Assembly (NCBI GenBank): GCA_025361085.1
Contig: JANYAX010000019.1
Location: forward strand, 1-44,872
Length of the DNA: 44,872 nt
DNA from: Candidatus Nomurabacteria bacterium
GTDB lineage: Bacteria; Patescibacteriota; Minisyncoccia; Phycocordibacterales; UBA9973
Direction: 5' to 3'
Part shown: piece after piece, positions 1,444 to 39,777 of the stretch
How the letters are laid out: each line of letters opens with the position of its first letter
How positions within the stretch are numbered: the first letter of the stretch is position 1
Translations under genes and position numbers: made by a program
The notes under the pieces: generated by a model
The model's input: only the letters and a program-made list of their open reading frames with translations
Told to the model about the DNA's origin: nothing
The model's database searches: none

Positions 1444-2169
1444 ATGAGTATAAGAAGACAACCTTTGGTAACAGGGGAAATGTATCATGTATATAACCGT
1501 GGAGTTGATAAAAGAGATATTTTCTCAGACAAGAAGGATATTTATCGTTTTGTCGAAAGTATTAAAGAGTTCAATCGAGAAGATAATATTAAAAGTCTCT
1601 CAAATTTAAGAAAATCAAAAAATATTTCAGAAAATTCCCAGATAGTGGCCTTGCCACTATCTGGAGAGAAGCTAGTTGAAGTTATTGGTTATTGTCTTAA
1701 TCCTAATCATTTTCATTTCATTTTAAAACAAGTCACAGATAACGGTATTTCGAAGTTTATGCACAAACTACAGGGTGGATATTCTTATTATTATAATATA
1801 AAAAATGCTAGATCTGGTTCCTTGTTTCAGGGTAAATTTAAATCACAAATAATTATTGATGAAAATTACTTTAATAAGTTGATAGGATATGTAAATAAAA
1901 ATTATCTAATTCATAATATTCCTCCGAATAAAAACGATTTAGTTTTTTCTGGAGATTTCGAATACGAAAATAATAAATTTAATATTATTTCTAAAAAAGA
2001 AGGCTCGAATATTTTAGAAATTCTAGGTGGTGTTAATAAATTTAAAAAACATTGTGATGAAATAGTCTCGATAGTTAGGGAAGAAAGGGGTTTAAAATCT
2101 CTACTTGAAGATGAGGATTTAAGTGTAATAATTGAAAGTCTTCCAGATAGTGGCAAGGCCTCTATCTGA
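1444..2169 (+). CDS. REP-associated tyrosine transposase (Y1/IS200-like, RAYT)
   Basis: N-terminus RRQPLVTGEMYHVYNRGVDKRDIF; HUH motif NPNHFHFIL; GGYSYYYN..RSGSLFQGKFKS, typical of Y1_Tnp RAYTs. Confidence 0.88.
   Translation: MSIRRQPLVTGEMYHVYNRGVDKRDIFSDKKDIYRFVESIKEFNREDNIKSLSNLRKSKNISENSQIVALPLSGEKLVEVIGYCLNPNHFHFILKQVTDNGISKFMHKLQGGYSYYYNIKNARSGSLFQGKFKSQIIIDENYFNKLIGYVNKNYLIHNIPPNKNDLVFSGDFEYENNKFNIISKKEGSNILEILGGVNKFKKHCDEIVSIVREERGLKSLLEDEDLSVIIESLPDSGKASI
1638..1664. repeat. REP-like palindrome inside RAYT coding sequence (copy 2, in-frame)
   Basis: CCAGATAGTGGC-CTT-GCCACTATCTGG, perfect 12-bp arms; encodes (S)QIVALPLSG. Confidence 0.9.
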
Positions 2170-2172
2170 GGG
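2143..2172. repeat. REP-like palindrome at RAYT 3' end, inverted orientation (copy 3)
   Basis: CAGATAGTGGC-AAG-GCCTCTATCTG, one arm mismatch; loop AAG instead of CTT; contains the RAYT TGA stop. Confidence 0.85.
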
Positions 2173-2252
2173 GTTTGTGGATTTTGGGGGTTTTATTGCG
2201 TTTTTGGGTTATTTTCCTTTCTTTTTTATTATAGATTTGATATAATATATGT

Positions 2253-2879
2253 ATGATTATCACATATTTAGGTAAGCAATTCTTTAAGATTGGACAGGGA
2301 AGTTTAACTATCGCATTTAACCCTATAAGTAAGGACTCAAAATTCGCTTCTTTAGCATCAAAATTCGGTTCCGATATTGCTTTCTCCACCATTAATCATC
2401 CTGATTACAACGGCTTTGATAATGTCTCACATGGCGACAATATTCCTTTTGAGATTAATGGTCCGGGTGATTATGAAATCAAAGATGTTTTTATAAAAGG
2501 AATAATGACAGAAACAACTCTGTCTGGTAAAAAATATATCAACACAATTTATTCTCTTTCGATAGAAAATATTTCACTTTGTTTTTTGGGTGCAATAAAA
2601 GAAGAGAAATTAAGCTCGGCTGTTCGTAGCCAGATTGAGTCACCAGATATTTTATTTGTTCCAATCGGCAATAACGAATTGTTGGGTCCAAGTGAAGCAT
2701 ATAAACTCGCAGTGACGCTTGAGCCTAAAATAATTATTCCGATGGATTACGACGAGAAAACTTTGAAATCTTTTTTGAAAGAAGCAGGACAAGAAAAAGT
2801 AATACCAGTTGAGAAACTTACTATTAAAGCAAAAGAATTAATAGGCAGAGAGGGCGAAATCGTCGTATTATCATCATAA
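2253..2879 (+). CDS. MBL-fold (UlaG-like) metal-dependent hydrolase
   Basis: MIITYLGKQFFKI, TINHPDYN, GPGDYEI, FVPIGNNELLGPSEA, IIPMDYDE pattern. Confidence 0.75.
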   Translation: MIITYLGKQFFKIGQGSLTIAFNPISKDSKFASLASKFGSDIAFSTINHPDYNGFDNVSHGDNIPFEINGPGDYEIKDVFIKGIMTETTLSGKKYINTIYSLSIENISLCFLGAIKEEKLSSAVRSQIESPDILFVPIGNNELLGPSEAYKLAVTLEPKIIIPMDYDEKTLKSFLKEAGQEKVIPVEKLTIKAKELIGREGEIVVLSS

Positions 2880-2893
2880 TTTTATAAATTTAT

Positions 2894-3220
2894 ATGCGTG
2901 CATATATAAAAAAAATGCAAGATAAGCCGGAACATATTCGTAAACAAATATTAGTAATAACTCTTATTATTTCAATGTCTGTGGTGGTATTAATATGGAT
3001 AGGAAGTATTGGATACAGTTTCGGTCATAAAAAAGATGTGGCAAAGGGGAAAGAAGCAGCCCAACCATTTGCACTTCTCGGTCAGTCGATCACAGATACA
3101 GTAAAAAGCATCAGTGCGAGTGTTGGAAGCATCTCATCACCAACAGTAGAACCAAAAGAAGAAGCAGTAGCCACAAAAGAACAACAAATAGATTTAACAC
3201 CAGTAGAACAGCGACAATAA
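2894..3220 (+). CDS. Hypothetical single-TM protein
   Basis: 108 aa ORF with one TM helix, directly upstream of gyrA. Confidence 0.65.
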
Positions 3221-3221
3221 T

Positions 3222-5678
3222 ATGGCAAAAGAAAAACCAGAATCAATAGAAATAAAAGAACATATAAACGTAGTGAGTGTAGATATCAGTTCAGAAATGA
3301 AAGAATCGTTCATAGATTATGCGATGTCGGTTATTACTGATCGTGCACTTCCCGATGTTCGTGATGGGTTAAAACCAGTTCATCGAAGAATTTTGTTTGG
3401 CATGTATGAAATGGGTCTCACTTCGACAGCTCGTTTTAGGAAATCTGCTGCTATCGTCGGAGACGTACTCGGAAAATATCACCCACATGGTGATGTTGCG
3501 GTTTATGATTCTATGGTAAACATGGCGCAAGATTTTTCGTATCGATATCCGCTTATTCATGGCCAAGGTAACTTCGGTTCTATTGATGGTGATGGAGCGG
3601 CTGCTATGCGTTATACAGAAGCTAAAATGTCTAAAGTCTCATCACTTTTACTTCTCAATTTAGAAAAAGAAACTGTAGATTTCCGACCAAACTATGACCA
3701 GACAAGAAAAGAGCCAGTGGTTTTGCCTACAGCAGTTCCGAGTCTTATTTTAAACGGAACGCTTGGAATTGCAGTTGGAATGGCCACAAATATTCCACCT
3801 CACAATCTTGCTGAAGTTATCGATGCCACGATTCATCTTATTGATAACAAAGATGCTACGACAGAAGATCTTATGGAATTTATAAAAGGTCCAGACTTTC
3901 CAGTTGGCGGAATTGTGTATGGTCAAGCCGATTTGCTTCATGCGTACTCGACTGGACGTGGAGGAGTTGTGACTCGCGGGGAAGCAGAGATTATTGAGCA
4001 AAAATCTGGAACTTTTCAAATAATAATTACCTCGATACCTTATCGTGTCAATAAATCTGTCCTCATAGAATCAATTGCCTCACTTGTCCAAGAGAAAAAA
4101 CTTGAAGGAGTAAAGGGCTTACGTGATGAATCAACAAAAGATATCCGTGTTGTTATTGACCTAAAGAGTGGAGTCTTCCCGCAAAAAGTTTTGAATTATA
4201 TTTACAAACATACCCAGCTTGAGCAATCTTTCAACTTTAACATTGTTGCACTTGTGGATGGTGTTCCGCAAACTTTGTCGCTCAAGAGCTTACTTTCGGA
4301 ATTCATAGATCATCGAGTTGTAGTTGTTCGTCGCAGAACAGAATACGATTTGCGTAAAGCAAAAGAGCGTGAGCATATTCTTCTAGGACTCAAGAAAGCC
4401 CTTGATCATATCGATAGAGTTATATCGGTTATTCGTGGTTCCAAAGATACAGCTGTTGCCAAGACGAACTTGATGAAAGAATTCAAATTCTCTGAATTGC
4501 AAGCTATCGCTATTCTTGAAATGAAATTGCAAAAGTTGGCTGGCCTCGAACGCAAAAATGTTGAGCTTGAATTAAAAGAAAAACAAGAATTAATCAAAGC
4601 ACTAGAAGCTCTACTTGCAAGCCCAAAGAAAATGATGGCGGTTATTTCAAGCGAACTTATAGATATTAAAGAAAAATACAGTGATGTTCGTCGAACTCGC
4701 ATAATTAAAGGTGGTGCAAAAGCTATAAATGAAGAAGATTTAATTCCTGAAAAAGAATCGGTACTTGTGTTCACAAAAGGTGGCTATGTGAAGCGTACGG
4801 ATCCATCCGAGTATCATATACAGAAGCGTGGCGGTGTCGGAGTTATCGATATCGAGACAAAAGAAGAAGATTTCGTGACAATGCTCGTATCTGCGAATAC
4901 ACATTCTGATCTATTGTTCTTTACCAATTTGGGTAAAGCATATCAAATCAAAATGTATGATATTCCAGAAGGTAAACGTGCGACAAAGGGTAAATCAATC
5001 ATGAACTTCATTTCTCTAAGTGGAGACGAAAAAGTCACTTCTATTTTACCAATTGATAAAGAAACCAAAAAGACGCTTGAGAGTTTGATGATGGTTACTA
5101 AAATGGGGGTTACTAAGAAAGTTGGAGCAGAAAGTTTCAAAGATGTTCGCAGAAGTGGTCTCATCGCTATTAAACTCGATAAAGATGATGAATTACAAGC
5201 AGTTCTTGCTGTCGCAAAGGGTGATGATGTTATGCTTGCGACAACATTAGGACAGTCGATTAGGTTTAAAGAGTCAGACGTACGCGAAATGGGACGTGGT
5301 GCTGGCGGTGTTCGCGCTATCAAGCTCGGCAAGGGTGACTTTGTGATTGGAGTTGATTGTGTTCCTAAGGGTGAGACAAAACTTTCAATACTCACATTGA
5401 GCTCAAATGGTCTCGGCAAGAAAACAAACATCAAAGAATATAAAACTCAAAATCGTGGCGGTTCAGGAATTAAGACTGCGAAGGTTACCACAAAGACAGG
5501 TAAATTAATCGTTGCAAAGATAGTCGGAGAAGAAAATGAAATCATTGCGGTTTCTCAAAAGGGTCAGGTTATAAGGATCAGTCTTGGTTCTGTTCCTACT
5601 TCTGGCCGTCAGACTCAAGGTGTCACTATAATGAAACTTCGTGCGGGAGATAGCATTGCCTCGATAACTTGTCTGTAG
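3222..5678 (+). CDS. gyrA: DNA gyrase subunit A
   Basis: [77 protein letters not shown]-terminal beta-pinwheel repeats. Confidence 0.97.
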
Positions 5679-11946: not shown

Positions 11947-12001
11947 GGTCACAAACACTAAAAATGCCTTATAATATAAGGCATTTTTAGTGTTTGTGAC
12001 C
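11947..12001. repeat. 27-bp perfect inverted repeat with 1-nt centre, overlapping the tRNA-Glu 3' end
   Basis: GGTCACAAACACTAAAAATGCCTTATA-A-TATAAGGCATTTTTAGTGTTTGTGACC. Confidence 0.95.
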
Positions 12002-12068
12002 CTACCGGGAATCGAACCCGAATTACCGGCTTGAAAAGCCGATGTCCTAACCGTTAGACGATAGGGCC
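11997..12068 (-). tRNA. tRNA-Glu (anticodon TTC)
   Basis: GGCCCTA acceptor / TAGGGTC, anticodon loop CTTTTCA, T-arm GGGTTCGATTCCC; CCA not encoded. Confidence 0.93.
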
Positions 12069-14563: not shown

Positions 14564-14788
14564 TATGCTCTGGACAAAATTCGAACCTTTTTTGAAAGCA
14601 ATCCTGAAGAACAAATCTGAAACAATGCGGACGAAGTTTTACGGAAACAATTTTCTGGGGAAAGGATTTCGCAAAACTTCGGCTGATTCCTTTTTTCTGA
14701 ATTCGGATGTCGCAAGCGGAGGAGGAGGGGTCTGGGGAGGAATCCTCCGCTTGCTCCTCTTTTTGTTTTGGCGAAATTCGAGCGGGCT
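14561..14788. repeat. Inverted repeat B, left copy (228 bp)
   Basis: Reverse complement of 16793-17020 with about 2 mismatches; abuts/overlaps repeat A. Confidence 0.95.
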
Positions 14789-16792: not shown

Positions 16793-17020
16793 AGCCCGCT
16801 CGAATTTCGCCAAAACAAAAGGAGGAGCAAGCGGAGGATTCCTCCCCAGACCCCTCCTCCTCCGCTTGCGACATCCGAATTCAGAAAAAAGGAATCAGCC
16901 GAAGTTTTGCGGAATCCTTTCCCCAGAAAATTGTTTCCGTAAAACTTCGTCCGCATTGTTTCAGATTTGTTCTTCAGGATTGCTTTCAAAAAAGGTTCGA
17001 ATTTTGTCCAGAGCATACCG
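16793..17020. repeat. Inverted repeat B, right copy (228 bp)
   Basis: Reverse complement of 14561-14788. Confidence 0.95.
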
Positions 17021-21569: not shown

Positions 21570-21956
21570 CTAAGATAATATTTTGAGATATTTCTTTTCT
21601 TGTCTTTCCATTGTACTACTATGTTCGAAACCTTTCAAATGCAAGCACCCGTGGATAACTAAATACTTTAAAAATTGCGGATATGACATGTCAAAAAGAG
21701 GAGCATCTCTTCTTACTTTTGAAGGGTCAAGGGTTATTTCACCAGAATTTTTTGAAAGTGGAAAAGATAAAATATTGGTGGTTTCATTTTTCCCCCGATA
21801 TTTTTTATTTATTTCTTTTTGTTTTTGTGGAGTTAAAAAGGTAATTCCGAGTTCGTATTGTTCGCCTAAGATTTTATTTTTTATAGAGACAAAAGGCAAG
21901 CTTGGTAGCTTGCCTTTTGTGTTGTTTTTAATGATGCAGAAACCTTTGTCTACCAT
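21570..21956 (-). CDS. ybeY: Endoribonuclease YbeY
   Basis: YRGKNETTNILSFPL; VIHGCLHLKGFEHSS metal-binding His motif. Confidence 0.88.
   Translation of the reverse strand: MVDKGFCIIKNNTKGKLPSLPFVSIKNKILGEQYELGITFLTPQKQKEINKKYRGKNETTNILSFPLSKNSGEITLDPSKVRRDAPLFDMSYPQFLKYLVIHGCLHLKGFEHSSTMERQEKKYLKILS
21889..21920. repeat. Perfect 13-bp inverted repeat in the 5' part of ybeY
   Basis: ACAAAAGGCAAGC-TTGGTA-GCTTGCCTTTTGT. Confidence 0.9.
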
Positions 21957-37049: not shown

Positions 37050-37961
37050 ATGATTTTAAAAACCGAAAAACAAAAAGAATATGAGTTGATAGATAGTGGT
37101 AATGGTGAAAAACTTGAAAGATATGATAAGTATATATTTAGGCGTCCTGATCCTGAAGCAATATGGGAGAAATCGAAAGAGCTCTCAATCTGGGAAAAAG
37201 CCGATTTGAAATTTGTTCGCAGTGGCACAAAAACAAAATGGATAGTTAAAGATGGTACATCTCGAAGTTGGGATATTAATTTTGGAGATTTAGTTTTTTC
37301 TATTCGTCCAACTTCGTTTAAACACACAGGACTTTTCCCAGAACAGTTGCCAAACTGGCAATGGATGGAGGAGATAATTACAAAAGCAAGCGGGGAAAGG
37401 CCTTGCCTTAAAGGAACCCAAGGCAAGGCCTTAAGGAGCGAGCCCGTAAAAGTTTTGAATTTGTTTGCCTATACAGGGGGTGCAACTTTGGCTTGCGCAA
37501 AAATTGGGGCAGAAGTTTGCCATGTTGATGGATCAAAAACTGCGGTTGAATGGGCACGTGAAAATGCCAAATTATCTGGATTAGAAAATGCGTCGATACG
37601 TTGGATTGTCGACGATGTGTTAGTTTTTCTAAAAAGAGAAATAAAAAGAGGAAGAAAATACGATGCCATTATAATGGATCCACCATCGTTTGGTCATGGG
37701 CCAAAAGATGAGCTTTGGAAAATAGAAGAGCATTTTCTTGAACTTATGAAGTTGTGCAAAGAAATACTTTCTGATGATCCTTTATTTATTCTTATTAATG
37801 GGTATACTGCCGGATATTCGGCTATTGCTTATGAAAATAATTTAAAATATTTTGTTAAAAAATATGGGGGGAAAATAGAATCAGGAGAATTAGTAATAAC
37901 AGAATCAAACAGTGACAGATTACTCCCTTGTGGTATATTTGCAAGATGGGAAAAAAGTTAA
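37050..37961 (+). CDS. RlmI-like class I SAM-dependent methyltransferase
   Basis: VLNLFAYTGGATLACAKIGAEVCHVDGSKTAVEWARENAKLSGL; DAIIMDPPSFGHGP. Confidence 0.88.
   Translation: MILKTEKQKEYELIDSGNGEKLERYDKYIFRRPDPEAIWEKSKELSIWEKADLKFVRSGTKTKWIVKDGTSRSWDINFGDLVFSIRPTSFKHTGLFPEQLPNWQWMEEIITKASGERPCLKGTQGKALRSEPVKVLNLFAYTGGATLACAKIGAEVCHVDGSKTAVEWARENAKLSGLENASIRWIVDDVLVFLKREIKRGRKYDAIIMDPPSFGHGPKDELWKIEEHFLELMKLCKEILSDDPLFILINGYTAGYSAIAYENNLKYFVKKYGGKIESGELVITESNSDRLLPCGIFARWEKS
37397..37432. repeat. In-frame palindrome in RlmI-like gene
   Basis: AAGGCCTTGCCTT-10 nt-AAGGCAAGGCCTT, perfect 13-bp arms; encodes RPCLKGTQGKAL just before VKVLNLFAYTGG. Confidence 0.9.
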
Positions 37962-39154
37962 CTGTATTTGTTGGTGTGTCGGGAGGGGTAGATAGCTCTG
38001 TCTCGGCAGCACTATTGAAAGATCAAGGCTACAATGTCGTTGGTGTTTTTATTCGTACTTGGACACCCGATTTTATAGAGTGCACTTGGCGCGATGAACG
38101 TCGTGACGCGATGCGCGTCTGTGCTCATCTTGGTATCCCATTTTTAGAGTGTGATGCTGAAGAAGAATATAAAAAGGGGGTGGCGGATTACATGATTGAA
38201 GAATATAAAAAGGGGAACACGCCCAATCCTGATGTGATGTGTAATCGTGAAGTGAAATTCGGAGTTTTTTGGAATTTTGCAAAAGCTCATGGTGCTGATT
38301 TTATCGCAACAGGGCACTATGCAGTGAAAGATTTGCTTTGCGCTGATAGCTCCTCTCGAAGCTCGAGTGAAAGCCCAAATAGTTTTAGAGAAGCGACGGG
38401 TGGGGGCGTGCCGTTTTTAGGTACTCCTAAAAATGGGGTTAAGGAGCTTCGAGAAAAGCTATTTGAGCTGAAACGATCACCTGATAAATCTAAAGACCAA
38501 GTATATTTTTTGTGGACTTTGACGCAAGATGACTTGGCTCATGTGTCGTTCCCGATTGGTCATTTAAAGAAAATTGAAGTTCGTAAACTTGCCGAAAAAT
38601 ACAAAATTCCTGTTGCTACAAAAAAAGATAGTCAGGGTGTTTGTTTCCTCGGGCCACTTGATATGAAAGATTTCCTCAGACATTATATTGAACCTAAAAA
38701 AGGCGAGGTACTCCTCGTCCCGAGCGAAGTCGAGGGAAAGAAAGATGAAGTTGTCGGAACTCATAACGGGGCAATGTTTTTTACTTTAGGAGAGCGTCAC
38801 GGTTTTGCATTAAATAATAATGTAAAAAGAGATGTTCCCTTGTATGTGGTAGCAAAAGACATAGAGAAAAATACAATAACCGTGGCTTCTACAGCCACCA
38901 GCCGGACTGGTGGCCCAATTGCTAGGCAAGGCCTAGCAATAATTAATACTAATTGGATTTCAAATACACCCTTATTCGATAAAACTTATCAAGCTCAAAT
39001 TAGATATCATGGAGAATTATTAAATTGTGAAGTAAAAGTAAAGATTATTGGGAAAGCTGAAATTATTTTTGAAAAAAATATTCTTGTAGATAAAGGTCAA
39101 TCGATTGTTATCTATGATGATGACGTCTGTCTTGGAGGTGGTGTTGTCGCGTAG
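37946..39154 (+). CDS. mnmA: tRNA-specific 2-thiouridylase MnmA
   Basis: VFVGVSGGVDSSVSAALLKDQGYNVVGVF; TPNPDVMCNREVKFG; ATGHYA; KDSQGVCFLG; ATG at 37946 preferred over track start 37928. Confidence 0.95.
   Translation: MGKKLTVFVGVSGGVDSSVSAALLKDQGYNVVGVFIRTWTPDFIECTWRDERRDAMRVCAHLGIPFLECDAEEEYKKGVADYMIEEYKKGNTPNPDVMCNREVKFGVFWNFAKAHGADFIATGHYAVKDLLCADSSSRSSSESPNSFREATGGGVPFLGTPKNGVKELREKLFELKRSPDKSKDQVYFLWTLTQDDLAHVSFPIGHLKKIEVRKLAEKYKIPVATKKDSQGVCFLGPLDMKDFLRHYIEPKKGEVLLVPSEVEGKKDEVVGTHNGAMFFTLGERHGFALNNNVKRDVPLYVVAKDIEKNTITVASTATSRTGGPIARQGLAIINTNWISNTPLFDKTYQAQIRYHGELLNCEVKVKIIGKAEIIFEKNILVDKGQSIVIYDDDVCLGGGVVA
38348..38460. repeat. Inverted repeat with nested hairpin in mnmA coding sequence
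   Basis: AGCTCCTCTCGAAGCTC / GAGCTTCGAGAAAAGCT (17 bp, 2 mismatches) enclosing TTTTTAGG-TACT-CCTAAAAA. Confidence 0.8.
38718..38737. repeat. Short REP-like element in mnmA
   Basis: TCCCGAGCGAAGTCGAGGGA, encodes VPSEVEGK. Confidence 0.75.
38894..38940. repeat. Two adjacent palindromes in mnmA
   Basis: GCCACCAG-CCGGA-CTGGTGGC and ATTGCTAGGC-AAG-GCCTAGCAAT. Confidence 0.85.
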
Positions 39155-39742: not shown

Positions 39743-39777
39743 GACCCCAGATAGCTGCCTTGCCGCTATCTGGGGTC
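39743..39777. repeat. REP-like palindrome downstream of mgtC-like gene (copy 4 of RAYT palindrome)
   Basis: GACCCCAGATAGCTGC-CTT-GCCGCTATCTGGGGTC, one arm mismatch; followed by TTTT. Confidence 0.88.

Follow-up and report, generated by a model that had tools for sequence, protein, structure and literature searches.

RAYT genes are flanked by REP sequences in inverted orientation and co-evolve with them (PMC2817692), and REP doublets are mobile units (PMC3116915). REPs and REP dimers have also been found inside ORFs of other phyla, where they encode 20–30 residues, and REPs occupy the same site in recB of two Xanthomonas (Di Nocera 2013, PMC3733652). The same study assigned its two REP super-families the tags GTAG and CGTC, and described TIRYTs, i.e. 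RAYT-like genes with self-complementary terminal inverted repeats (TIRs) and not GTAG REPs (PMC3733652). According to the portion of PMC3767692 available to us, the palindromic elements of Rickettsia (RPE) and Wolbachia (WPE) lie in pre-existing ORFs whose frame they do not destroy, with different elements at one gene site; the same portion puts RPEs at 100–150 bp and ties them to no transposase. The accessible part of a further report describes inverted repeats within protein-coding genes of Nematomorpha mitochondria (PMC6649704).

The window analysed here is a 44,872-nt stretch of a Patescibacteria genome of approximately 0.77 Mb; the methyltransferase, mnmA and RAYT-like genes and their palindromes, like the intergenic hairpin given below, lie on its forward (+) strand. 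An initial annotation had reported two related palindromes, one within an RlmI-like methyltransferase gene and one within mnmA. Both are present, at 37397–37432 and 38918–38940, in the open frames of their host genes and far above chance expectation. Their common core, GGCAAGGCC, was recovered six times in the window, compared with 0.05 expected from shuffled sequences. The 771-kb genome contains 22 copies, compared with two occurrences of a reversed control. The two palindromes are related through this core and its closing triplets but not in architecture, the first being a dimer of hairpins and the second a single hairpin.

The RlmI-like gene (37050–37961, an open frame) encodes a class I SAM-dependent methyltransferase whose nearest PDB chain is 2igt. 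Its palindrome, designated type B1, consists of two perfect 13-nt arms separated by 10 nt and is an inverted dimer of triloop hairpins, AAGGC-CTT-GCCTT N10 AAGGC-AAG-GCCTT, with spacer AAAGGAACCC and encoding about ERPCLKGTQGKAL. The full element probably extends over 37391–37438, with CGGGGA on the 5′ side and AAGGAG on the 3′ side of the dimer, which fits the conserved flanks CGGGAA ... GAGGAG in a comparison of 69 dimers. The main-type consensus derived from these 69 unique dimers with flanks was CGGGAA-RAGGCCTTGCCTY-aagggagccc-RAGGCAAGGCCTY-GAGGAG, and subtypes with other stems and loops (e.g. GAGGT-CCA-ACCTC) were also observed. The residues RPCLKGTQGKALRSE, previously described as ‘extra-looking’, are a genuine insert, corresponding to a 16-residue gap in 2igt and missing from many congeners. 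The dimer pattern was found in 15 of 24 congeners, with no matches to the reversed control. Across the order, 57 of 197 genomes contained it, in versions differing in triloop and stem, and reversed-control matches came from one genome only. A strict scan of 84,980 GTDB species genomes returned 45 stretches with the dimer, whose titles were mostly Nomurabacteria or other Patescibacteria, along with some uncultured bacteria, two labelled as Bacteroidetes bin and one as Pseudomonas.

The mnmA gene (tRNA 2-thiouridylase; 37949–39154 from a putative start codon) hosts several palindromes, all in frame and including inserts beyond the one already annotated. The single REP-like hairpin at 38918–38940 (ATTGCTAGGC-AAG-GCCTAGCAAT) places an AAG loop on a 10-bp stem. 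A second palindrome adjoins it at 38894–38914 (GCCACCAG-CCGGA-CTGGTGGC); the loop in which it lies differs from congener to congener. The larger nested insert at 38355–38453 (CTCGAAGCTC ... GAGCTTCGAG, with TTTTTAGG-TACT-CCTAAAAA inside) encodes the peptide NSFREATGGGVPFLGTPKNGVKELRE, which is common to genomes G010 and G012 and missing from most congeners, and a small palindrome at 38718–38737 (TCCCGAGCGAAGTCGAGGGA) encodes VPSEVEG at a site where only a few congeners have extra residues. Across the congeners, the MnmA loop following ATGHYA and two further loops displayed differing palindromic inserts in some species and none in others.

Comparison of orthologues revealed presence, absence and same-site replacement of these elements between species. 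Among 30 methyltransferase orthologues, those of G000, G015, G009, G012 and G041 share this dimer type and its position; the G009 copy is slightly decayed and G041 belongs to another genus. Other palindromes occupied the site in G014 and G004, and it was short or empty in many others. When the insert region was excluded from the methyltransferase tree, the main dimer required five changes on it and was unclustered, so that a single ancestral insertion is not supported. In nifS, one site contained the dimer in either orientation, palindromes of other families, or nothing. In dus, the dimer was present in G012 and G004 and as a decayed copy in G021, an example of element copies that were inherited and then decayed. 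The inserts in AtpG and Fmt were confined to single species. The palindromic codons were not conserved in relatives in the methyltransferase, MnmA or NifS/Dus, and the inserts in the orthologue sets examined left the frame intact, with no internal stops.

Hairpins within CDS were also far more frequent than expected. Counting perfect hairpins with a stem of at least 9 bp and a loop of 3–5 nt, we identified 19 within CDS in 334 kb of the source genome, compared with 1.35 (maximum 4) after codon shuffling, and 19 in 320 kb of G018, compared with 0.65 (maximum 2); these stretches represent about 43 % and 46 % of the respective genomes. Synonymous shuffles agreed with the codon shuffles on this excess. 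RAYT-type cores in CDS other than those of RAYT-like genes numbered 15 in the source genome (0.5 expected) and 13 in G018 (0.36 expected), although one of the 15 falls in a GTGKTLL motif and is apparently fortuitous. The initial proposal of palindromes tolerated inside coding genes, in the manner of Rickettsia, is thus borne out by the enrichment and by the variability of the inserts in relatives, the two checks that had been named as able to refute it. Its narrower forms fared less well. Short related palindromes are indeed involved, but they belong to several families and not to one, and tRNA/rRNA-modification genes are not special as hosts, given that AtpG, NifS, LeuS, PheT, Fmt, GatB, TsaD, Mur ligases and a DNA-alkylation repair enzyme are also affected.

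Several other repeats and inserts were noted during this analysis. A palindrome at 21889–21920 (ACAAAAGGCAAGCT-TGGT-AGCTTGCCTTTTGT) lies within a 128-aa ORF on the minus strand (21570–21956), and G018 and G015 have related palindromes in sequence resembling it. A 43-nt palindrome (GCAAGCGGAGGA...TCCTCCGCTTGC) occurs twice in opposite orientation about 2.1 kb apart (14712–14754 and 16827–16869), and a perfect inverted repeat with 27-nt arms at 11947–12001 touches a minus-strand tRNA gene (11997–12068) at its 3′ end. Elsewhere in the source genome, a locus on contig C34 (L223 1326–2277) carries the in-frame palindromic insert KPPLLTKERGQGVRSF (CCCCCTCTCCTT-ACT-...), which homologues lack and which represents another palindrome family that is not of RAYT type. 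By eye, a putative NUDIX-like domain was apparent inside LeuS of G018 (L130 98–2986) and a putative histidine-phosphatase-like domain inside its IleS (L131, minus strand, 1555–4911).

The window also contains a RAYT-like Y1 (HUH) transposase gene (Pfam Y1_Tnp; 1444–2169), whose product carries the sequence NPNHFH. Its flanking hairpins are inverted relative to one another, with a CTT loop upstream (1386–1418; CCCCCAGATAGTGGC-CTT-GCCACTATCTGGGGG) and an AAG loop downstream (2144–2168; CAGATAGTGGC-AAG-GCCTCTATCTG), the latter overlapping the stop codon. A copy of the same type lies in frame within the CDS (1638–1664, encoding SQIVALPLS) and another is intergenic (39743–39777; GACCCCAGATAGCTGCCTTGCCGCTATCTGGGGTC). 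Y1_Tnp genes were present in 19 of the 24 congeners. The source genome has at least six copies: a search listed six, and a further related gene lies on contig C2. Same-type hairpins were found on both flanks of 26 of 36 RAYT-like genes, compared with one of 559 other genes. These triloop hairpins are of one type per gene and usually lie approximately 30 nt or less from the gene ends. Hairpins and transposases have co-evolved: when hairpin types were mapped onto a tree of 35 RAYT-like proteins, nine changes were required, the minimum possible, compared with a mean of 18.2 for shuffled types. In thirteen of the 36 transposase genes, the gene's own hairpin type recurred in frame within the CDS, and internal hairpins fell around residues 58–66 or 88–91. 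In a separate observation, the hairpin type carried by a reverse-transcriptase-like gene of the source genome (contig C11, L210 1274–2348) was that of a RAYT-like gene roughly 1 kb distant.

At the protein level, the HUH motif was found in 35 of the 36 RAYT-like proteins, the exception being short and N-terminally cut. Close to the catalytic tyrosine, a strict NP(L/V)(R/K)xG motif was found in none of the 36, with 28 displaying Y..NP. The region 5′ of the hairpin foot lacked a GTAG, GTGG or CGTC tag in all 77 flanking or internal hairpins of RAYT-like genes. Because both the heads and this protein motif are absent, the canonical mode of RAYT recognition is not simply transferable to these genes.

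The association of the two cited palindromes with RAYT palindromes, as first suggested, was upheld in part. Hairpins of this general type flank RAYT-like genes, and the mnmA hairpin fits a subfamily other than that of the window: it is almost identical to the sequences flanking a G016 RAYT-like gene (AATTGCTAGGTCTTGCCTAGCAATT) and resembles, less closely, those of a copy on contig C30 of the source genome. The hairpin type of the window gene itself (TGGC-CTT-GCCA) is unlike either cited palindrome, and its role as their mobilizer is not supported. With respect to dimers, a RAYT-like gene in G014 has AAGGCAAGACCTT-GTAC-AAGGTCTTGCCTT dimers on either side, the arms of which recur in the methyltransferase insert of G041; no RAYT-like gene with exact B1 dimer flanks was found.

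We consider it likely, with a probability of roughly 70 % on the basis of comparative sequence analysis, that the palindromes are non-autonomous elements of RAYT/TIRYT type that derive from the hairpin ends of Y1 transposase genes, are moved in trans, and are tolerated and translated in protein loops. Under this reading they would be REP-like mobile elements of two forms, the single triloop hairpin and the inverted, REPIN-like dimer. A cognate Y1 transposase would recognize the single-stranded hairpin, copy or move it, and insert it elsewhere. Insertions into CDS would survive only where their length keeps the frame, the frame is free of stops and the site is a tolerant surface loop, and the host gene would then be translated straight through the insert as 10–20 extra residues, with a presumably near-neutral effect on the host. 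Different families would re-use such loops in different species, and old copies would decay.

Outside the core, the left and right flanks of the dimers were complementary above shuffled pairs over the first six positions (z 10.3) and over the next eight (z 7.8), although subtype may explain part of the signal in the first six. Simple insertion at random sites is insufficient to account for this, as the outer flanks of many dimers complement each other. The complementarity could reflect a choice of existing inverted repeats as targets or copying by template switch; alternatively, the element itself may include a variable outer stem. We regard as unlikely the alternative that the inserts, though real, owe their spread or growth not to RAYT-like transposases but either to quasi-palindrome copying, in which replication switches template at hairpins, or to some unrelated enzyme. 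Template-switching would yield just such flanks, which at positions 6–13 outside the core gave 3.59 complementary matches compared with 2.37, and two dimer-bearing genomes, G009 and G021, both drafts, yielded no Y1_Tnp match. Presence of RAYT and dimer among the 24 congeners showed only a weak trend (13 of 19 genomes with RAYT and two of five without). However, RAYT-like genes are flanked by the very cores that recur from genome to genome, core type follows the RAYT tree, and unrelated genes contain near-identical hairpins, all of which speaks against this alternative.

Selection for functional RNA hairpins, such as attenuators or stability or pausing elements, is considerably less probable. 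In keeping with such a role, numerous copies lie between genes, close to gene ends, and stem pairing is kept across species, but many congeners have nothing at the gene site concerned, unrelated genes are affected, and both orientations occur at one nifS site. Known RNA families were rejected at the palindromes, since Rfam identified just three tRNAs in the window and no match at these sites. Known translational bypass elements are hairpin-bearing inserts within conserved genes, a description that the present inserts share; even so, it is highly improbable that they are bypassed or spliced and their peptides never made, for bypass or splicing would need neither the preserved frame nor the lack of stops seen in the orthologue sets. 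That these are ordinary variable loops with codons palindromic by chance retains next to no credibility: the host positions are length-variable loops, but the excess over codon and synonymous shuffles refutes this idea, and identical DNA cores occur in unrelated genes and are read in different frames.

Beyond transposase-derived hairpins in general, the data may hint at a GTAG-less RAYT-like system in Patescibacteria. Here CDS would be a regular habitat of the palindromes, the conserved internal hairpin of the transposase gene would act as a third recognition site, for self-regulation or as an internal transposition end, and outer stems would be rewritten at each site to pair with one another. 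We put this forward tentatively. Its in-frame transposase hairpin offers a regulatory hypothesis that is directly testable. More broadly, in-gene palindromic elements now extend to very small Patescibacteria genomes, in which core enzymes have been repeatedly altered. A point of importance for annotation, phylogeny and structure prediction is that many ‘lineage-specific loops’ of these proteins are probably mobile DNA. The element families, the filled, altered and empty sites and the cognate transposases together provide a comparative set for studying the life of selfish hairpins in coding DNA. No description of such elements in Patescibacteria was found in the open-licence literature, which is weak evidence of novelty. 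Intragenic REPs have already been published for other phyla, and the Patescibacteria elements vary a known theme.

Compared with known systems, the elements resemble REP/REPIN sequences and their RAYTs in being short single or inverted-dimer hairpins, in their inverted placement around Y1 HUH genes, and in hairpin–transposase co-evolution. The union of two inverted hairpins in one unit, as at 37397–37432 and in the 69 unique dimers, is REPIN-like. In contrast to REP/RAYT systems, there is no GT(A/G)G head and no NP(L/V)(R/K)xG, and many transposase genes contain an in-frame hairpin copy; canonical REPs are also high in copy number and mostly extragenic, whereas the 22 copies of GGCAAGGCC in 771 kb lie in many cases within CDS. 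Like the intragenic REPs of PMC3733652, palindromes and dimers occupy ORFs and, in related species, can be found at one and the same site, although those elements come from another phylum, and ours have triloop cores with variable outer stems and neither GTAG nor CGTC. As far as the available portion of PMC3767692 describes RPE and WPE, they share with our elements the in-frame position in ORFs and the use of one gene site by different elements, but RPEs are larger (100–150 bp) than the types studied here (about 23–50 bp; 23 nt and about 48 nt at the two cited sites). The inverted repeats of Nematomorpha mitochondria likewise lie in coding genes but, in the part of that report accessible to us, are much longer, perfect and mitochondrial. 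As in TIRYT/TIRtron, RAYT-like genes are flanked by self-complementary TIRs without GTAG. Neither the tag (0/77) nor the NP(L/V)(R/K)xG motif (0/36) of canonical REP/RAYT is present, and the elements, REP-like in their working, are best filed as TIRYT-like.
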